NCBI GenBank assembly: GCA_021300535.1
Contig: JAJTED010000083.1
Coordinates: forward strand, 1-32,064
Length of the DNA: 32,064 nucleotides
DNA from: Planctomycetaceae bacterium
Lineage (GTDB): Bacteria; Planctomycetota; Planctomycetia; Pirellulales; UBA1268
Direction: 5' to 3'
In this document: positions 22,906 to 32,064 of the stretch, piece by piece
How positions within the stretch are numbered: position 1 is the stretch's first letter
Layout of the letters: each line of letters opens with the position of its first letter
Program-made: the position numbers and the translations under genes
The notes under the pieces: model-generated
Seen by the model: only the letters and a program-made list of their open reading frames with translations
The model's database searches: none
Told to the model about the DNA's origin: nothing

Positions 22906-23114
22906 TAAATCCTTAGAAGGCTTCACGTCCTCGGCGAACTGCCGGAGCCGGAAGTCACCCGAAGGTTCTGCTCAGGAGGCCAAAGGTTAAACGAGCAGGA
23001 AAAGTGGATTCGCGAGCGAAAACGCCGGATGCTAAAATCGGAGGTGCGTGCCATAACCTGTTCCGGACTGCGAGTCCTGGCCGCTTCTACGGCCTTTTCT
23101 GCGACGAGAACCCT

Positions 23115-26100
23115 ATGGCACTGCTGTTGCAATTCATCCTGTTCGGTCGTCGTCGGCGGATGACGGACGGGGGCCGGCGGCGCAGCCGCCGTTCGGCAGG
23201 CGGCACCCCGGGCCTCGAGGGCCTAGAGCCGCGGGCCATGCTCGCGGCCGACGACGTCCTCGTCGGTTTCGTTGGCAATCGGGTCGTGCTCACGCTTGAC
23301 CCGCGAGGCGCGACGATCACGAACCTCGCCACCAAGTACGACGCACCGGCAGCCAGGCTGACGATCACCGCCGCGACGGCGGGCTCGCTTGCCATGGCCG
23401 CTCCGGTCAACGGCATCTCCGTTGATGCCCTGGCCGACACGATCACGGTGGACCTGAAAAAGATCAGGAAGTTCGCGGGCCTCTCGATCGTCGGAGGAGC
23501 AAACACCGATTCGGTCACGATCGGCCCCGGCGGTGTGAACCTCGCCGCCATCGGCCGAGGGGCGGCCGCGCAGGGCTTGGTCATCGACACCGGCGCGGGG
23601 ATGGGCGACAGCATCACCATCGCCGGTCAGATCGTGGCGAAGGGCGCGGGCGGCGTGCGCCTCGCGACGAAGTCCGAGGGCGTGACGCACGGGATTCTGC
23701 TGGCGTCCAGCGTGGTGACCGCCGGAGGCTCTCAGTCGTTCGGCGGCGCCGTCACGCTCCTGAACGGCGTGGCCCTTCAGGCCGGCGGCGACATCGCCTT
23801 CGCGTCCTCGGTCGATGGGTTCGGCAGGCTGCGGCTCACCGCCGGACGGGCGATCACGATGGCAGGTGATGTCGGCAGTCGGCTGCCGCTGCAGGGCATC
23901 ACGCTGGCAAAAGCCAGCCGCGTGCTCGTCGGCGGAGGGTTCGTGCTGGACGGATCGGGCACCGCCGCCGGCACGAGCGGTCTCGTGATCGGGGCGAACG
24001 TCCACAATGTCGTGTTCTCTCGGCTTTCCGACGCCCGCACGATCAGCGGATTCGGCGGTGCCGGCATTCGCTTCGTCGGCGGATCGACGGGATCCCGGAT
24101 CACGGACGTGGCGAGCTTGGGTAATGGTGTCGGGCTGCTGGTCGGCCCCGGCGTCTATCGGGGCACCGTTATCTCCGGCAGCTCCTTCAGCGGCAACGTC
24201 GGCCACGGCGTGTCGCTCCAGGCTGCGCGAGGCCTCACGATCGGCGGTCGAAATTCGGGTGCCGGCAACGAAATCGTCTCCAACGGTGGATTCGGTGTCG
24301 CGGCGATGGGGCCGTGCACAGGTTCGCTCGTGGTGGGAACCGAAATTGGCGACAACGCACTCGGTGAGGTCGAGAATTACCTTGCGAGCACCCTCTCGGG
24401 CAACCTGCTTATCCAGAACGCCACACGCCTGCGGCTTCAACTGAACGAAGTGGGGCGGGCAGTCTATCGGGCGCAGAAGGCGCGAAGCTATTCCTTCGAC
24501 GTCGGGGTCGAGGCCTTCGTGGTGTCAGCCCGTTCGACCGGGTGGCTCGACACCCGCACCGCCGCGCTCGACGTCGATGCCTCCGTCGGATTCTTGGTGC
24601 CGCCGCCGGGGACGATGATCCCGTCGGGGATGCAGCGGACCGTGCTCGGCGAGAACCGTCTTGCCATGTCGCTGACGCCTTTGAAGACGCTTCCCGGGAT
24701 CGGCTTCGCGAGGAGCGTGCAGTATGTCGGTAGCGACTCGTATGGCCGGCATTATCGGGCCGTCGTGGGGCTCTCGACGTTCGCGGGCATGATCCCGCTG
24801 GCCGATCTGGAGGCTGCCCCGCGCATCGGCCGCGACGGGAGCCCCGTGCCGGTGGATGTGTGGGTGAACGCCCAGGGCAACGTGACCCGGATCGCGGGTG
24901 CGTTCGCGGGCGGCACGTTCACGATGTCGCTGCGCGGGCAGGGTGCGACAGGGTTCGTGCCGGCGATGGCCCCGGCGCCGGTCGCGGCAGTGACCGTGGC
25001 CACCGCACGAGCGGCTCCGGCCGCTGCGGGCATCCGCGGAGGCGGCGGTCCAAGCCTGCCCGGAACGTCGAACGGCGTCAGCGGCGTGCAGGTGGGCCGC
25101 TCCACGCTTGCGATTCCTTATGGCGGCGGCGTGCAGGCGCCTGCCGATTGGTACTTCCCGACGCAGGCCGACGGCGGGATCGAAGCCCAAGGCATGATCT
25201 GGCTGCAGCATGCATCCGGCGGCACCGGCGGCTCTCTCTCCGCGCTGGCCGTCGATCTCGCCCGGCAGACCAACAGCATCGTGGTGGCGCCGTCGCTGCC
25301 GGCCACAATGAACTGGTCGCGGGCTGGCGAACCCGTCCGGCAGGCTGTGGCGTCGTTGTTCGAGGGCGACCGGTCGGCGCTCGTCGGCAGCGCGGCGGTG
25401 GCCGGCTATGCCGGGCAGGCCAGCGGACTCACGGGGAAGTTCGTGCTCGCCGGTCATTCCGCGGGCGGCGGCTTCGTGACAGCGGTCGCGGCCGCCTACG
25501 TGGACCGCAACCCGGGTTCGACCAACCTCGTCGGCGTGATCATGGAGGACGGCGTCGCGTACGGCGCGTTCGACGGCAGCGGCAATTTCGCGGCGCAGGT
25601 GGCCGCACTCGATTCCCGTTCCATCCCCGTCTATCAGCTTGCGGCGCCCGCGCAGCTCTGGAACGCCTACGGTGCCACCACGAGCGCGCTTCTGACGGTG
25701 GATCCCGGCAGGTTTCGGGGCGTGGTGCTCACCGGCGGTTCGCACGTTGACGCCATCGTGGGCAGCAACCTAGCCGACGACATCGTGGCCCAGCGGGTGA
25801 CCACGCGGTCGCTGCCCAGCAATGCGGCGGCCGCCCGCCTGCTGACCGCCGGCTGGATCAACGACCTGTATGCGGGCGCCGTGCCGGATGATCCCTCGTA
25901 TGGCTTCTATGCCGCGGCGAATCGCCCGCTCCTGCTGGGCGATGCCGCGGCGACCGGGCTCCCCAGCCCGGTCGCAAACATGTGGTCGGCGGGCGAGTGG
26001 AGGCTCGATGCGGAACTGTCCGCCATTGGCGGGCTGTCCGGCTTTGAGCCGGAGCCCGCGGTCAACAGCGGCAGCAACGGCCTCTCTGGAGCCTCCACCC

Positions 26101-27404
26101 CGTCGCTCAGTAACGGCGTGACCGGCGTGAAAACCGGCACCGCGTCGCTGGCCATTCCGCTTGGCCCCAGGGGCTACGTGACGTCGGCGGATTGGTACTT
26201 CCCGACCCAGGTCGACGGCCAGGTCTCGGCCAACGGCGTCATCTGGCTCCAGCCCGGCGAGGTCCGCGACGCGGCGGCCTTCGCGGCGCTGGCCACCCGG
26301 ATCGCGGGGCAGACCAACAGCATCGTAGTCGCGGCCGCGATCAGTTCCTTCGAGATCCCGACCCGGCCCGGGTGCTTCCTGGGCAGTGCAGCCATGCAGC
26401 AGGCGGTCGCCGGCATGATGCTCGGCGATCGCGGAGCGCTCGTCATCAGTGCGACCGCCGCCGGCTATCAGGGGGTGCTGCCCGAAAAGATCCTGCTTGC
26501 CGGTCAGCGCATGGGCGGCGGCTTTGCCGTCGAGGTGGCGGCACGCACCGTCGACAACGGCGCCGCCGAGCACGTGCTGGGAGTGGTGATGTTCGACGGG
26601 GTGGCCAGCCCGAACCAGTTCCCCGCATCGCTCGCGACGATCGATTCCTTGGGCATCCCGGTCTACCAGATCGCCTCGCGGCCGCAGGCCGCGAATCACT
26701 GGGGCCGCACCACGGAGCAGCTTGCGGCACTCCACCCCGACCAATTCGTCGGCGTTCAGTTTGACGACGGCAGCACGCTCGACGCCATAGTCACGCTCGC
26801 CACCGGCTGGATCAACGATATCTACGCCGGGAACGGACCGACCGCTCCGCGGTACGGCATCTACGCGAATCCCAACGACGGCTCATTCGTCGCCAACCAG
26901 CCGATCATCATGGGCGGGACGGGGGTCACCGTACTCCCTGCGCCGCCGCCGGTCGACATCAATCAGTACGCAGGCACGTGGCACGAACAGGGCAGCGTGA
27001 AGCAGGGGCCCCTTATCGGGCTGGTCAACACCACGGCTGTCTTCACGCCCCAGCCGAACGGCACCATCGATGTGGAGAATTCCGGCACCTACGGGCCTAA
27101 TGGCCCGGCGTGGAAGGTCACCAGTTCTGCGGTCCCAGTCAACGCCGCCAACACCCGCCTCAACGTGAGCTTCTCCGGCGAGCCCAGCAGGGACGGGCCG
27201 GGCAACTACTGGATCCTGGACTACGCCCCGGACTACAGCTGGGCGATCGTCAGCGACCCGACCGGGACCTCGGGATCCATCCTCACCCGTGACCAGGACA
27301 TCCCTGAGGCCGAGTACAAGGCGTTGGTGGCCCGGGCGTATCGGCTCGGTGTGCGGCGCACCATCACCCCGACTCCGCAGCACCCGACCATCCCGCCGGC
27401 GTGA
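23115..27404 (+). CDS. LEPR-XLL surface protein: beta-helix, two alpha/beta-hydrolase domains, lipocalin
   Basis: 1429 residues. A basic N-terminus leads into the planctomycete LEPR-XLL motif 'LEGLEPRAMLAAD' (about 34-46). Residues about 50-430 are Gly/Val/Thr-rich with parallel-beta-helix-like units ('GAGIRFVGGSTGSRITDV', 'NEIVSNGGFGVAA'). Two related alpha/beta-hydrolase domains follow, each opening 'LAIP...ADWYFPTQ'. Domain 1 (about 650-975) has nucleophile elbow GHSAG with S782 and His877 in 'GGSHVDAI'. Domain 2 (about 1000-1275) has GQRMG with Arg1132 and Thr1221 at those places. Residues about 1280-1429 are a lipocalin ('INQYAGTWHEQGSVKQ', 'NYWILDYAPDYSWAIV', 'ILTRDQDIP'). The start is uncertain: GTG 23004 or ATG 23160 are in frame. 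Confidence 0.85.
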   Translation: MALLLQFILFGRRRRMTDGGRRRSRRSAGGTPGLEGLEPRAMLAADDVLVGFVGNRVVLTLDPRGATITNLATKYDAPAARLTITAATAGSLAMAAPVNGISVDALADTITVDLKKIRKFAGLSIVGGANTDSVTIGPGGVNLAAIGRGAAAQGLVIDTGAGMGDSITIAGQIVAKGAGGVRLATKSEGVTHGILLASSVVTAGGSQSFGGAVTLLNGVALQAGGDIAFASSVDGFGRLRLTAGRAITMAGDVGSRLPLQGITLAKASRVLVGGGFVLDGSGTAAGTSGLVIGANVHNVVFSRLSDARTISGFGGAGIRFVGGSTGSRITDVASLGNGVGLLVGPGVYRGTVISGSSFSGNVGHGVSLQAARGLTIGGRNSGAGNEIVSNGGFGVAAMGPCTGSLVVGTEIGDNALGEVENYLASTLSGNLLIQNATRLRLQLNEVGRAVYRAQKARSYSFDVGVEAFVVSARSTGWLDTRTAALDVDASVGFLVPPPGTMIPSGMQRTVLGENRLAMSLTPLKTLPGIGFARSVQYVGSDSYGRHYRAVVGLSTFAGMIPLADLEAAPRIGRDGSPVPVDVWVNAQGNVTRIAGAFAGGTFTMSLRGQGATGFVPAMAPAPVAAVTVATARAAPAAAGIRGGGGPSLPGTSNGVSGVQVGRSTLAIPYGGGVQAPADWYFPTQADGGIEAQGMIWLQHASGGTGGSLSALAVDLARQTNSIVVAPSLPATMNWSRAGEPVRQAVASLFEGDRSALVGSAAVAGYAGQASGLTGKFVLAGHSAGGGFVTAVAAAYVDRNPGSTNLVGVIMEDGVAYGAFDGSGNFAAQVAALDSRSIPVYQLAAPAQLWNAYGATTSALLTVDPGRFRGVVLTGGSHVDAIVGSNLADDIVAQRVTTRSLPSNAAAARLLTAGWINDLYAGAVPDDPSYGFYAAANRPLLLGDAAATGLPSPVANMWSAGEWRLDAELSAIGGLSGFEPEPAVNSGSNGLSGASTPSLSNGVTGVKTGTASLAIPLGPRGYVTSADWYFPTQVDGQVSANGVIWLQPGEVRDAAAFAALATRIAGQTNSIVVAAAISSFEIPTRPGCFLGSAAMQQAVAGMMLGDRGALVISATAAGYQGVLPEKILLAGQRMGGGFAVEVAARTVDNGAAEHVLGVVMFDGVASPNQFPASLATIDSLGIPVYQIASRPQAANHWGRTTEQLAALHPDQFVGVQFDDGSTLDAIVTLATGWINDIYAGNGPTAPRYGIYANPNDGSFVANQPIIMGGTGVTVLPAPPPVDINQYAGTWHEQGSVKQGPLIGLVNTTAVFTPQPNGTIDVENSGTYGPNGPAWKVTSSAVPVNAANTRLNVSFSGEPSRDGPGNYWILDYAPDYSWAIVSDPTGTSGSILTRDQDIPEAEYKALVARAYRLGVRRTITPTPQHPTIPPA

Positions 27405-27737: not shown

Positions 27738-28895
27738 CTATGGCGGATCCACCGGTCGGCCGTCGTCGATCCAGGCGAGCCGCTGCCAGGTGCCGTAGCG
27801 AGGCGGAGTCGTGCTCAAGTCGACAAGGCTTTCAACCGTATCGTCGATGAACCCCACATGGCCGTCGCAAAAGAGCACGTTCACCCCGCCGCGATGGCGG
27901 CTCGTCGCGCCCGACTCACAGGGCAGATTCATCACCGGATTGTCGTTTGGCGAGGGCAAGTTGGAATAAACCGAGCACCCCCAGTCGTTGACGCTATCGA
28001 TATCCTCAACGCGGCGCGGAAGCCGATCCGGCTGGGTGGCGTTCGGCGACACAGCCGCATGGAGCATCTGCATGCCCGCGTCGTTGAACCAAAACGCACC
28101 ACGGCCATCGCGATCGGAGACGCCGCGGAGATACTCGGCGACGGCAATCGTGTTTGCCAGTCCGTCTTTGATCGTTTGGGCCGTGGCACCCTGCGAAAAG
28201 CCAAATACAGCGCGGCGGTCCGAGGATGCGCGCGGAGGGAGCGGCAGGAGACTCCTGTTGGTCCAACCGGTCGTATCGAGGCGACTAATTGCTCCTTCCA
28301 CGTTCGTGCCTGAAAAGATGCCGAGATAGTTCGACTTGGCGAGTCGCAGCACGCCCACCTGCGGCAAATTCCCGATCACCGGCGACGACCAGAGGGGGCC
28401 GGTCTGGTTGTCGGACGGGCAGAGAAACGGCTGGATCGACCTGCCATTCACGCGGGCGTAAAGGGAGCGGACGTCGGCTTCTGTCAGGCTTGGATTTGCC
28501 GGGCTCGGAATGCGAAAGAGAGGCCCGCGAAGACCGTCGTAGTAGGCCTGCTCCTCGACCCGCGGCAGCAGTTCGTGCAAAAAATACGTCCAGTCGAAAA
28601 ACCCGAACTTTGCGACTGGGCCGGTGAGGGCGGTCGAACCGGTTTCCTGGTCGCCCGATCGCCAGGCGCTCGCGAAGATTCCCGGGGGGAAGGAACCCGC
28701 CGCCGACTCGTAGCCGGCCATCGCGACGCCGATCTGCTTGAGGTTGTTGGTGCAGACCGTGCGCCGGGCCGATTCCCGTACCGATTGCACGGCCGGAAGC
28801 AGCATCGCCACGAGGATCGCGATGATCGCGATCACCACCAGCATCTCGACGAGCGTGAAGCCGCGGCGGAGTAAAGTAGGCGCAGGGTTTTTCAT
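27738..28895 (-). CDS. DUF1559 protein with type IV pilin-like N-terminus (385 aa)
   Basis: 385 residues. Prepilin-type N-terminal methylation motif '[19 protein letters not shown]' (about 10-28): the peptidase would cut after Gly12 and methylate Phe13, leaving a hydrophobic helix. The DUF1559 body follows ('[19 protein letters not shown]', 'FLCPSDNQ', '[12 protein letters not shown]') and ends with the family's '[19 protein letters not shown]'. Planctomycetes encode many such pseudopilin-like proteins, of unknown function and thought to be surface associated. ATG 28895 lies just before the leader and 6 nt after the stop of the next DUF1559 gene, so the two are clearly one operon. Confidence 0.95.
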
Positions 28896-28901
28896 GGGAC
28901 G

Positions 28902-30410
28902 CTATTTTTCCCTGCCAATCTCCCCGGTATTGGCGAGCACGTTTCCGGGGGGGTCGTTGGGCACCATAAGCATGTCCCAGATTTCGTCACGAAATTGCAC
29001 CGTCCCCGACATCAGGATGCCGCCGAGGCCGGTGGGATTGTAGGTGTCTCTGCCATATTCACGGCCGGCCACGTCGGGATCGCATTGCTCGCGGCGGGTG
29101 ACCCGCGGCGAAATGCCCCGCACCGACCCGTCGCACATGACCACGTTGAGCACCTCGTGGTTGGCCTGTAGCCGGAACTTATTGCAGCCGGAGAGCGCGG
29201 GCCGTTGCTGGAACATGAGCGTGTTGCCGTAGCCCATGGACAGGGCAGAAGCGTACCACTGATCGGCTGCCGAGGTGCCGGACGCCCTCACGTCGATCCC
29301 GAATGAGTGTTCGTCGCCGGGTTCATTCGTCGGAAGGAAGGCATACCGGAACGAGTTGCCATCGTCGCACCGCCGCATGCCCTCGCCGAACATGATCGTG
29401 TTGGACAGGCCATCCACGATGTGGGCAAACCGCCGCGGATCGAGGCCGAGCGTGCCCGAACTCATGTGGTGAAACTCGGGCGGCAAACCAGAACCCGCAG
29501 CAGCGGAACGGGCCCGAGGAAATCGCCCGCCCATGTTCTGATCCAGCGGCGACGCGCCGGCTGCGCTCAGAATCCGCCCTCCGGCGCACGCCGTGCCAGG
29601 GGCCGTGCCACTACATCGCTGAAACCTGACGAAGGCATGGGCATTGGCCATGTAGTTGGTGAGCGACCAACGCACGTTGCCGCGGCTCTTGTTTGAGGCT
29701 TCCGCGGTCATCCGCATGGTGTTCGGCGGCACCCCGGAACCGTCGGCGCTGCACTGCAGCACGTCGAGTGACTTCGCCGCCTGTGCGGTGTCAAAACCGG
29801 GGGGAAGGCCACTGTTCGTGAGAACGTCGGTCGGCGGTTGCGGAATCTGCTCAAATACGGCCGGTATCGCGGGAGTGCCCCTGCCCGGATTGGTGATTAT
29901 CGACCGCACTTCGAAGATGGTGCCGGTGATCACGAGACCAACGTTGGTCGAAGAGTAGACCAGAACCGCGTTCGTAGAGGTGGTGTACGTCGGGGGTTCG
30001 TAGTCCGGGCTCTGGGGAATGGCCGGGGAAATCATTGTGCCCGTGGTAAAACTGGTCAACTTGATCGTTCCCGTCGTCGACAGCGGAAACCCGTCAGAGA
30101 ACGTCTGTTCGCCGAGGTGTGGCAGCAGGTGCAAGATCCAGGGCCCGAACCTCTGCCCGCCCGCATTCCTCATGCTGCCCCAGTAAGGCGGCATCGAGTC
30201 GTTCAGATGGTGAAACTGCTGAACGGCCGACCCGAGCTGCTTGAGGTTGTTGCCGCACTGGGCCCGACGGGCAGACTCGCGGGCCGACATCACCGCCGGC
30301 AGCAGCAGGCCCGCGAGGATGCCGATCACGGCGATCACGACGAGCAGTTCGACAAGCGTGACTCCGCGGCGGCGGGAACAGGCCAGATCAGTCAGCCGTG
30401 CTTGCGACAT
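28902..30410 (-). CDS. DUF1559 protein with type IV pilin-like N-terminus (502 aa)
   Basis: 502 residues. Pilin-type leader and helix '[19 protein letters not shown]' (about 14-32), with Val at +1 in place of the usual Phe. Then '[20 protein letters not shown]' and a longer middle region than its neighbour, including a Thr/Pro-rich insert at about 115-200, '[19 protein letters not shown]', and the C-terminal '[16 protein letters not shown]' signature of DUF1559. It heads the two-gene DUF1559 operon. A TAATAT box on the minus strand at 30483-30488, about 73 nt upstream of the ATG, could be a -10 element, but no convincing -35 is seen. Confidence 0.95.
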
Positions 30411-30593: not shown

Positions 30594-32064
30594 TCAGGAC
30601 CGCCGCCGAGACGCTACGTAAACCGAAGCCGCGATCCCGATGAGGGCCAGGGTAACCGCCGTCGGCTCGGGAACATACTGGAGGACGATGTTATTGCTCG
30701 ACTGCACGACGTTGAACGTGTTGGTGTTGCGGGAGGAGGCGGAGAATGCCTCACCCGTCGAGTCGACCCAGCTTGCCGGATTGTTCGCGAGCTGGAAGTT
30801 GCTGAAGTTTGTCGTCGTGCCGGTGACGGTAAAGAGCGTCCATTGCCGGGACTCGCTCCAGAACGCATTGTCCCAGTCAACAACGCCGACCCCGGTGCCA
30901 CCGAAATTGAGGGTCAGCGTTGTCAAGGCAGCGAAGTCGAGCGTGCCGCCGACGTTGATGCCGTCGTACAAAGCGCCCCGACTGCCGAGAGAATCGGTAT
31001 TGCCCCACAGCTCCCAGATCACCTGCGACGTGCCGCCCGTATAGGTGAGGTTGGTCGAGAACGTCTCGATGCCGGGCGAGTTGCCCGGGGAATGAATGCC
31101 GGCGATCGTGGCGTTGCCGCCGATCGTGCCCGAGCCCATGAGCGTCGCGCCGGCAGCCACGGAGAGGGCGCCTTCCGCGAGGCGACCGTTCACGACGAGC
31201 GTGCCTTGGTTGACCGCCGTGTTGCCGGTGTAAGAGTTTTGACCGGAAAGCTCGAGCGTGCCGAGGCCGGTCTTGGTGAGGCTTCTGGCACCGCTCGAGC
31301 CGGTGCCGATCACGCCGCTGACGGCGAGCCGCGCCGAGGCAGCCACGTCGAACGTGCTGTTGTCGTCGAGGGCGACGCTCGCGGAGATCTGGTGGCCGGT
31401 GCCGACCACGTTTACGGCGGCCGTACGCGAAAAGGTGCGAAGGTTGAAAGTGCCATTTGAGAACGCCGAACCAAGCGTCATGGGCGTGCCGGGGTCCATC
31501 CGGTTGTCGCTGTTGATCGCCAGAGTTCCGGCGACGACTTTGACGGACTGGATCGACGCGGGCACGCTCGCTGCAAAGACCACCTCACCTGCGTTGCCGA
31601 GGGAGCCGATCGTAAAGTTGACTGCGGGAGACGTTCCGCCGGTGGAGTCTTGCCAAGTGCTTGCGAACTCAACAGTACCGCTGTTTGAGGCCTGAAGCGT
31701 GACGTCGCGGCCGAGCCTGATGTCCGTCCCAACGCTGTTGAACCGCGAATTTCCGGCCCCATAGCCGCCGAGAACCACGACCTGATTACTGCCGGTGTTG
31801 ACGGCAAGACCACGGGACACCGTTCCACTCTCCACGAGGAGTCCGGCGGTGCCTGTCGTCGCAGACGAGTCGCCGACAAGCGGCAAAACGTTTGCGTCTC
31901 CGCCGAAAGGGCTAGGGCCCGTCTGGCCTACCGACCCCACGATCACGCGCCCATCGAGAACCCGCAGCTGTCCGCTGTAGCTGCTGTTGCCCGTGAGTCG
32001 CCAGGTGCCAGCCCCGCTCTTGGTGACGCTCGCGACGCTAGCGTCGATCGACGGCAGCGAATTG
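30594..32064 (-). CDS. Autotransporter-repeat PEP-CTERM protein (5' end outside window)
   Basis: At least 490 residues; the frame is still open at the right edge, so the N-terminus lies beyond the window. It carries autotransporter-associated beta-strand repeats: 'VTKSGAGTWRLTGNSSYSG' near the edge and 'LTKTGLGTLELSGQNSYTG' near 31270-31220, then 'GSGTIGGNATIAGIHSPGN'. The C-terminus is a canonical PEP-CTERM sorting tail: 'VPEPTAVTLALIGIAASVY' followed by 'VASRRRS', to be processed by an exosortase. It is probably an exported adhesin or matrix protein. It is upstream of the DUF1559 pair on the same strand with a 183-bp gap. Bases 30543-30570 contain a GC-rich stem that might end its transcript. 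Confidence 0.93.
   Translation of the reverse strand, partial: NSLPSIDASVASVTKSGAGTWRLTGNSSYSGQLRVLDGRVIVGSVGQTGPSPFGGDANVLPLVGDSSATTGTAGLLVESGTVSRGLAVNTGSNQVVVLGGYGAGNSRFNSVGTDIRLGRDVTLQASNSGTVEFASTWQDSTGGTSPAVNFTIGSLGNAGEVVFAASVPASIQSVKVVAGTLAINSDNRMDPGTPMTLGSAFSNGTFNLRTFSRTAAVNVVGTGHQISASVALDDNSTFDVAASARLAVSGVIGTGSSGARSLTKTGLGTLELSGQNSYTGNTAVNQGTLVVNGRLAEGALSVAAGATLMGSGTIGGNATIAGIHSPGNSPGIETFSTNLTYTGGTSQVIWELWGNTDSLGSRGALYDGINVGGTLDFAALTTLTLNFGGTGVGVVDWDNAFWSESRQWTLFTVTGTTTNFSNFQLANNPASWVDSTGEAFSASSRNTNTFNVVQSSNNIVLQYVPEPTAVTLALIGIAASVYVASRRRS

Follow-up and report, generated by a model that had tools for sequence, protein, structure and literature searches.

One open reading frame of the window, which is the whole 32,064-nucleotide stretch of planctomycete DNA analysed here, encoded a large modular protein in which two alpha/beta-hydrolase-type domains were followed by a lipocalin. 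The hydrolase domain adjoining the lipocalin had lost its catalytic triad, and this hydrolase-lipocalin unit was shared across phyla. The best reading is a surface-displayed hydrophobic-ligand binder that would derive from a secreted esterase; if any catalysis survives, it would be in the first hydrolase domain (H1). The features of the protein were as follows:

23115..27404, +, whole coding sequence, 1429 amino acids plus stop
23223..23243, +, LEPR-like motif LEPRAML, residues 37-43
23238..24482, +, beta-rich, probably solenoid region, residues 42-456
24483..25034, +, region between solenoid and H1, residues 457-640, pLDDT <50
25071..25940, +, hydrolase domain 1 (H1), residues 653-942, triad candidates S782, D812 and H877
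25458..25460, +, codon of the nucleophile candidate S782 (GHSAG)
25743..25745, +, codon of H877 (GGSHVD)
26112..26918, +, pseudo-hydrolase domain 2 (H2), residues 1000-1268, a tandem copy of domain 1
26508..26510, +, codon of R1132, nucleophile position of domain 2 (GQRMG)
26775..26777, +, codon of T1221, histidine position of domain 2 (DDGSTLD)
26952..27350, +, lipocalin domain, residues 1280-1412, with a GTW motif at its start

Domain content of the protein

The initial annotation had described five parts in order: LEPR motif, beta-helix, two hydrolases and lipocalin. The frame and the domain order were real. H1 and the lipocalin were borne out and the competence of H2 was not, while the LEPR motif stayed below profile cut-offs and the beta-helix was plausible, though unproven. 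Upstream, the same frame extends without a stop to a GTG at 23004. Three further genomes of the window's genus carried full-length relatives, 77-79% identical. In total, six full-length planctomycete copies (the window and L031-L035) had open frames of about 1430 codons, and their C-terminal halves were 74-83% identical to the window. The fusion is no assembly accident, since it recurs in these six copies from freshwater planctomycetes.

Residues 640-1429 were modelled with a pLDDT of 86.0 and a pTM of 0.87, giving two alpha/beta-hydrolase-type domains and a Blc/TIL-type lipocalin; structure prediction and Foldseek, the check proposed for this part, thus recovered both the hydrolase and the lipocalin cores. 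The C-terminal lipocalin was confirmed by Pfam Lipocalin_2 at residues 1280-1412 (E 6.5e-22; 78.5 bits vs. a cut-off of 24) and by Foldseek matches to Blc, TIL and ApoD (E 2.2e-11 to 2.8e-8), with an eight-stranded barrel in the predicted model. Sequence matches of the lipocalin in the PDB were TIL and Blc; the Blc subfamily model NF007786 scored 32.7 of 267 bits and did not reach its cut-off. Escherichia coli Blc and the plant temperature-induced lipocalin share the fold and sequence family of this domain but are stand-alone proteins, unlike the fusion in the window. The accessible part of PMC5350466 treats YceI/BCN lipocalins and mentions neither 'Blc' nor 'Lipocalin_2'.

In H1, the GHSAG motif with S782 and the histidine H877 were positioned as annotated, and D812 is the probable acid of the triad, judging from the alignment. 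Foldseek on the model matched acetylesterase, PETase and cutinase (E about 1e-6); by sequence alone, Pfam Abhydrolase_3 scored 22.2 of 25 bits, just below its cut-off. The Chlorophyllase model PF07224 matched 32 of 48 relatives at E <= 0.01 (best 2.1e-11), with the window's stretch absent among the matches listed. A profile of nine hydrolase domains found two matches among PDB sequences (E 0.24 and 0.77), neither of them a hydrolase. H2 was 42% identical to H1 (E 2e-56), so that their homology is far above chance.

The N-terminal half was less sharply resolved. PF07595 scored 13.8 bits on the window against a cut-off of 25.5, leaving the LEPR motif sub-threshold, and NF012209 (LEPR-XLL), which at E <= 1 also matched seven of 14 control genomes, had no match in the window's N-terminus. 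The motif LE[PS]RAMLAA was kept in all nine planctomycete rows, whose N-terminal stretches were 75-82% identical. The N-terminal model (pLDDT 58.9 overall, mostly 55-90 over residues 42-456) was beta-rich and solenoid-like at moderate confidence, and a beta-helix is plausible on this model. For the same region the NosD and Beta_helix Pfam models were below cut-off, and no PDB structure matched at E <= 1e-3 (best E 0.021). Residues 457-651 were modelled below a pLDDT of 50, and a Pfam search of 24540-25067 gave no match. The N-terminal region also matched other large proteins elsewhere in the genus.

Catalytic residues and relatives in other phyla

Triad residues were counted with the window entered as L097. 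Domains covering <140 profile positions (e.g., H1 of L063) were excluded, as were all domains of L054, L088, L091, L093, L094, L095 and L096. We defined the actinobacterial-type set ourselves, as every locus whose title named none of Planctomycetota, Burkholderiales/Limnohabitans and Verrucomicrobia; two loci titled Bifidobacterium breve (L040 and L067) and one titled Acidobacteria (L060) fall in it. Candidatus Kuenenia is the title of L073, which was counted as planctomycete. The structure alignment comprised the window plus 47 relatives, L069 being the only one of the 48 left out.

In the window, the H2 serine was replaced by arginine and the histidine by threonine, with Asp alone kept. A full triad was found in none of the 14 H2-type copies from Planctomycetota, Burkholderiales and Verrucomicrobia, and was intact in all 85 actinobacterial-type domains. 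The second hydrolase of the initial annotation therefore stands as a homologous domain and not, by its sequence (GQRMG, no His), as a catalytically competent one; H2 as an active hydrolase was rejected because the triad is absent. The full Ser-Asp-His triad was present in five of seven planctomycete H1 domains (the window and four of the six others), the histidine being lost in L034 and L036. The HG oxyanion motif of the relatives was changed to HA in 7/7 planctomycete H1 domains; HG was kept in 82 of 85 actinobacterial-type domains, the remaining three lacking coverage there. A GQRRGG in L088 was considered as a dead actinobacterial copy and rejected: it lies near the frame start, far upstream of the domain, and L088 stops short of the nucleophile.

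The H1-H2-lipocalin order occurred in 22 actinobacterial-type ORFs, 14 of them titled Mycobacterium/Mycolicibacterium, with an N-terminus different from that of the window. The five-part architecture had been called unfamiliar, and this holds for the N-terminal half only; many proteins share three of the five parts. A planctomycete-only invention is ruled out by this cassette. Actinobacterial proteins such as those of Mycolicibacterium rhodesiae (L037) and M. sphagni ENV482 (L042) have orthologous H1 and H2 domains in the same order and are 50-61% identical to the planctomycete protein domain by domain. Unlike the window, both of their hydrolase triads are intact, and a signal-like helix and low-complexity linker replace the LEPR/solenoid part. 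A literature search, in which subscription journals were thinly covered, found no papers describing hydrolase-hydrolase-lipocalin proteins.

Burkholderiales of Limnohabitans type (L071, L076, L077 and L081) carried a dead H2-type hydrolase and lipocalin as in planctomycetes, with H2 66-88% identical to planctomycete H2. These proteins are short, without H1 and without the N-terminal solenoid, and a lipobox-like L-x-x-C start was present in 6/6 Burkholderiales copies. The planctomycete L073 likewise had the dead hydrolase and lipocalin without H1, preceded by a fibronectin type III domain. L035 and the Burkholderiales locus L071 were 88.5% identical in DNA over 1313 bp, a segment made up of H2-lipocalin and roughly 40 upstream bases; outside it the two loci had no further match at E 1e-20. 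The neighbours of the L077 copy look betaproteobacterial by eye.

A sparse draw of 294 genomes from the phylum gave two matches, the window's own genome and one at E 8.7e-4; gene-carrying relatives of the genus were absent from the matches. A plasmid search gave 42 records, each covering less than 80% of the query, and the 15 matches listed were all in the lipocalin end.

Phylogeny and constraint

Hydrolase trees started from 106 domains, of which 102 of >=225 aa entered a quick tree and 75 a careful tree, near-duplicates and most divergent single-hydrolase copies being excluded by hand from the latter. The freshwater H2-type copies were monophyletic (99/95), with actinobacterial H2 as their sister group (100/99), and planctomycete H1 grouped with actinobacterial H1 (100/99), which indicates that both members of the tandem were transferred together. 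The lipocalin tree agreed: planctomycete and Burkholderiales lipocalins grouped together (100/100) inside the lipocalin group of the hydrolase-hydrolase-lipocalin proteins (95/90). Treekit gave long-branch warnings on both trees. The passage from live to dead H2 needed one change on the hydrolase tree, with all 13 freshwater H2-type rows scored as dead and all H1 as live, including the His-less L034 and L036. Together these sequence data suggest that the whole cassette was transferred, that H2 lost catalysis once and that dead H2-lipocalin was later shared with Limnohabitans-type Burkholderiales. The probable direction, from actinobacteria to planctomycetes, rests on nesting and breadth under an outgroup that we chose.

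Median omega was 0.388 for H2, 0.389 for H1 and 0.438 for the lipocalin. H2 is constrained as much as H1, omega of about 0.39 being moderate constraint; because the values are near-equal across all domains, they single out no H2-specific role.

Proposed function and alternatives

On this reading, an uncultured freshwater planctomycete would secrete the modular protein or display it at the surface. The C-terminal half may be a cassette gained horizontally from a mycobacterium-like actinobacterium; the donor form was probably secreted, with two chlorophyllase/PETase-like serine hydrolase domains, both bearing the triad, ahead of a Blc-type lipocalin. The cassette sits behind a LEPR-type, probably solenoid module common to other large proteins of the genus, which probably serves export and display. 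The H2 nucleophile and histidine would have been lost once, before the sampled freshwater copies split, and purifying selection may have kept the dead H2 beside the lipocalin as a partner without catalysis of its own. In the most likely working, the pair would bind a hydrophobic ligand, either lipid or ester, and hold it at the cell surface, and H1 may still cleave the bound ligand where its triad survives. This whole explanation, with a foreign cassette, a single H2 loss, a dead-hydrolase/lipocalin binder and H1 perhaps a residual enzyme, is held at slightly better than even confidence.

The initial annotation had proposed that the protein captures and cleaves a hydrophobic ester. The parts are indeed fused, and the ligand could reasonably be a hydrophobic ester or lipid; the cleavage part is weakened because the lipocalin-adjacent hydrolase is dead in all 14 freshwater H2-type copies, planctomycete H1 has HA throughout and has lost its histidine twice, and L073 and four Burkholderiales retain H2-lipocalin without H1. 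Catalysis may nevertheless be the point, since the window and most other planctomycetes keep Ser, Asp and His in H1, and H1 is constrained like the rest. A protein in which lipocalin and H2 hold an ester and hand it over to an active H1 is rather unlikely. With the active site of H2 lost, the evidence suggests that the tail holds a hydrophobic molecule as much as cutting it. The N-terminus shared with other large proteins and the fibronectin type III domain of L073 would also fit a large surface fibre with the hydrolases as spacers and the lipocalin as terminal recognition domain; this is improbable, as a spacer has no need of a specific hydrolase fold beside the lipocalin and the Burkholderiales copies are short and stalkless.

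Stepwise loss of catalysis in a protein heading to a pseudogene would agree with the dead H2, the H1 domains without histidine and a broken lipocalin remnant in one genome of the genus (L026), but the long open frames of the six full-length copies, the omega in every domain and the spread of the dead unit across phyla make it very improbable. That assembly or binning fused unrelated genes is scarcely credible, even though the freshwater genomes were assembled from metagenomes and several records seem to carry wrong titles: the same junctions occur in six planctomycete copies from separate records, and the L077 copy lies among betaproteobacterial-looking genes.

The binding role proposed for H2 is drawn by analogy. 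IS11 (PMC9972953) is a metagenomic family VIII carboxylesterase of beta-lactamase fold, in which a C-terminal lipocalin lies over the catalytic cleft and probably aids substrate binding. As an esterase fused to a C-terminal lipocalin it offers a precedent for a lipocalin as lid and substrate binder, but, as described there, it is a single, active hydrolase with another fold and other catalytic residues.

The dead-hydrolase/lipocalin pair can tentatively be viewed as a new extracellular ligand-holding module, in which the lipocalin may close over the former active site and which may have passed between lake phyla after the loss. The pair would then have spread between Planctomycetota and Burkholderiales because binding alone was useful, and its uses might be lipid scavenging, sequestration of harmful hydrophobic compounds or ester sensing. 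Among alpha/beta-hydrolase pseudoenzymes, GID1, neuroligins and insect yolk proteins have lost catalytic residues and bind instead of cleaving; unlike the window, they are eukaryotic and without a lipocalin. The present family would add a bacterial example in which a serine hydrolase has become a pseudoenzyme, with intact and dead relatives, a probable single active-site loss and later transfer of the dead form across phyla, which together make the keeping of a dead hydrolase beside a lipocalin a testable question. It also suggests that large planctomycete surface-type proteins can acquire whole foreign hydrolase-lipocalin cassettes.

Domain architecture and surroundings

The open reading frame at 23115-27404 (+) encodes a 1429-residue product. 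In the Pfam search of this protein, Lipocalin_2 scored over its cut-off at residues 1280-1412 (E 6.5e-22), Abhydrolase_3 was sub-threshold (22.2 bits; cut-off 25), and NosD and Beta_helix gave weak matches only. A phmmer search of PDB sequences matched the plant temperature-induced lipocalin (TIL; E 5.8e-10) and also Escherichia coli Blc. Residues 640-1429 were modelled from a 48-row alignment, in which the window protein was joined by 47 relatives found in named genome records; the mean pLDDT was 86.0 and the pTM 0.87. Among the best 50 Foldseek rows against the PDB, the lipocalin part matched Blc derivatives, TIL, Blc, and ApoD (E 2.2e-11 to 2.8e-8), and the hydrolase part matched acetylesterases, PETases, and cutinases (E about 1e-6). 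The model supports both a lipocalin fold and a hydrolase fold, and with the reading frame and the Pfam lipocalin it agrees with the domain order of the initial annotation: LEPR-XLL motif, beta-helix, two alpha/beta-hydrolases, lipocalin.

The model of the N-terminal 651 residues was poor as a whole (pLDDT 58.9) and showed a beta-rich part at residues 42-456. Its PDB matches all fell short of E 1e-3; the top rows (E 0.02 to 0.3) included tailspikes and an alginate epimerase, which we take to be beta-helix proteins. A beta-helix at residues 42-456 is plausible from the model, but its PDB matches were no better than E 0.02. The LEPR motif was conserved as LE[PS]RAMLAA in all nine planctomycete rows (Pro in three, Ser in six), but scored under the PF07595 cut-off, and NF012209 gave no match to the N-terminus of the window protein. 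In the window's genome, NF012209 matched only outside this gene, below its cut-off; it also matched at E ≤ 1 in 7 of 14 control genomes.

Downstream of the gene were the following features:
27738-28895 and 28902-30410 (-), just past the gene on the opposite strand, two adjoining proteins of the DUF1559 (SBP_bac_10) type that carry N-terminal methylation motifs
30594-31946 (-), an open reading frame with a passenger-associated-transport-repeat profile match (PATR, E 4.9e-10), possibly a second surface protein

Active-site loss in the second hydrolase domain

Hydrolase domains H1 (residues 653-942) and H2 (1000-1268) of the window protein are tandem copies, being 42% identical (E 2e-56). In their alignment, the nucleophile site reads GHSAG in H1 and GQRMG in H2, and the histidine site reads GGSHVD in H1 and DDGSTLD in H2; beyond the histidine site, H2 also lacks 26 aligned residues. 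Having neither the nucleophilic Ser nor the His, H2 is by its sequence a pseudo-hydrolase, and the earlier description of a dual hydrolase did not hold.

The catalytic triad was surveyed in 106 domains. Among actinobacterial-type loci (those titled outside Planctomycetota, Burkholderiales/Limnohabitans, and Verrucomicrobia), the full Ser-Asp-His set occurred in 32/32 H1 domains and 53/53 H2 or single domains. In H2 and single-type domains it occurred in none of nine from planctomycetes (L073 and L084 being single domains, and the H2 of L036, which runs into a contig end, being scored by its nucleophile), none of four from Burkholderiales, and not in the one from Verrucomicrobia. Five of seven planctomycete H1 domains kept the full set; at the histidine, L034 has Pro and L036 a gap. 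The HG motif, presumably part of the oxyanion hole as in the alpha/beta-hydrolase family, was HA in all seven planctomycete H1 domains and HG in 82 of 85 actinobacterial-type domains (three outside coverage). Given the two incomplete triads among the seven and the HG to HA change in all of them, catalytic activity of planctomycete H1 is possible from its sequence but not assured.

Median dN/dS (Nei-Gojobori, seven planctomycete copies) was 0.39 for the N-terminus, 0.389 for H1, and 0.388 for H2 (21 pairs each), and 0.438 for the lipocalin (15 pairs), with widely overlapping ranges. H2 was as constrained as H1, both only moderately. Median identity to actinobacterial copies was likewise equal, at 56.1% for H1 and 55.4% for H2.

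Architectures and distribution of relatives

When the species-genome collection was scanned, 64 loci matched. Actinobacterial-type reading frames comprised 22 H-H-lipocalin (seven cut 5' by a contig end), 11 H-H, 17 single H (one cut), three H-lipocalin, and one H-lipocalin-lipocalin (cut). Fourteen of the 22 H-H-lipocalin loci were titled Mycobacterium or Mycolicibacterium; the rest were Mycobacteriaceae, actinobacterial bins, and two bins under the title Bifidobacterium breve. Planctomycete loci comprised five H-H-lipocalin besides the window, one H-lipocalin (L073), and one single H (L084), with one H-H and two H cut by contig ends. Burkholderiales had four H-lipocalin and two more cut, and the Verrucomicrobia copy was a single H. 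In the six actinobacterial-type proteins with complete starts that were inspected, and in L060, the N-terminus by eye holds a hydrophobic, signal-like helix and then a linker of low complexity. A lipobox-like L-x-x-C opened 6/6 Burkholderiales copies.

Several relatives had other arrangements. L060 (825-4253, +; titled Acidobacteria) had a mycobacterium-like N-terminus and a hydrolase-lipocalin fused to DUF1254 and DUF1214. L073 (265-2460, +; titled Candidatus Kuenenia) had a LEPR-like motif, fibronectin type III (E 4.1e-8), a dead hydrolase, and a lipocalin, without H1. The 1194-residue frame of planctomycete L084 (2442-6023, +) had the same N-terminus type, then kelch-like repeats (by eye) and a dead hydrolase, without a lipocalin. 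In mycobacterial loci L037, L042, L045, L048, and L053, an H-H gene lay directly 5' of the H-H-lipocalin gene on the same strand, likely a tandem gene pair. L026 (G003 contig 349) held a broken lipocalin remnant over two frames, behind an IS-transposase-like stretch (by eye).

Of 60 searched genomes, the window's own among them, 21 matched somewhere, most rows falling in the N-terminal module. Three other genomes of the genus gave full-length matches, another two copies reached contig ends, and the C-terminal part matched in one genome of another genus. Judged by their lengths, six contigs appeared in both searches (L032=L003, L033=L004, L034=L002, L054=L005, L091=L006, L073=L007). For four window reading frames near the gene, tblastn matched nothing in the flanks of eight planctomycete loci; these flanks extend for about 5 kb at most, which makes the result only a hint that the surroundings differ.

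Probable transfer between phyla and proposed working

In the hydrolase tree (75 domains, IQ-TREE; support as bootstrap/SH-aLRT), planctomycete H1 grouped with the H1 of those actinobacterial proteins that also bear a lipocalin (100/99). The 13 freshwater H2-type copies formed one group (99/95), sister to actinobacterial H2 (100/99), and a single live-to-dead change suffices on this tree. In the lipocalin tree (40 rows), planctomycete and Burkholderiales lipocalins grouped together (100/100) within a group containing 22 actinobacterial lipocalins (95/90). Since the two trees agree, the cassette most likely moved whole, after the H1/H2 duplication. From nesting and breadth we infer an actinobacterial origin, a direction that rests on outgroups of our choosing and on trees with long-branch warnings.

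Burkholderiales H2 copies grouped with planctomycete L035 (100/99). Their lipocalins divided between L032, which paired with one (99/96), and L035, which paired with three (91/89); this pattern suggests recombination or several events. L035 and Burkholderiales L071 shared 88.5% DNA identity over 1313 bp, spanning H2-lipocalin and about 40 preceding bases. Burkholderiales L077 sits on an 88.8-kb contig, and its neighbours, which we take by eye to be nagZ, acpS, pdxJ, recO, and era, argue against a stray planctomycete contig.

The dead H2 and lipocalin are the part kept in both planctomycetes and Burkholderiales; L084 and Verrucomicrobia L090, with a dead domain and no lipocalin, speak against strict pairing. 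Mechanistically, the closest precedent found was the IS11 esterase, whose C-terminal lipocalin is described as covering the catalytic cleft and probably aiding substrate binding, although its esterase fold differs from that of the window's hydrolases (PMC9972953). By analogy, the lipocalin would be placed next to what was once the active site of H2, holding a hydrophobic ligand. The actinobacterial H2-lipocalin pair would act as a live esterase whose lid binds lipid. Planctomycetes would display the pair behind the probable solenoid, and H1 may have stayed on as an esterase. Across the 48 aligned relatives, the nearest hydrolase profiles were Abhydrolase_3 (33), Chlorophyllase (32; best E 2.1e-11), and Lipase_3 (26), and seven matched an extracellular short-chain PHA depolymerase profile (best E 5e-7); Abhydrolase_3, below cut-off, was the sole profile match of the window's own hydrolases. 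A reasonable first candidate for the ligand is a long-chain alcohol ester or a polyester.

The five-part architecture was unfamiliar to the initial annotation, but three of its parts, H1-H2-lipocalin, already occur together in actinobacteria, in a protein that appears to be uncharacterised. The novelty lies in the N-terminal fusion of planctomycetes and, to a greater degree, in the unit of dead hydrolase and lipocalin, which seems to have spread from phylum to phylum once its active site was lost.
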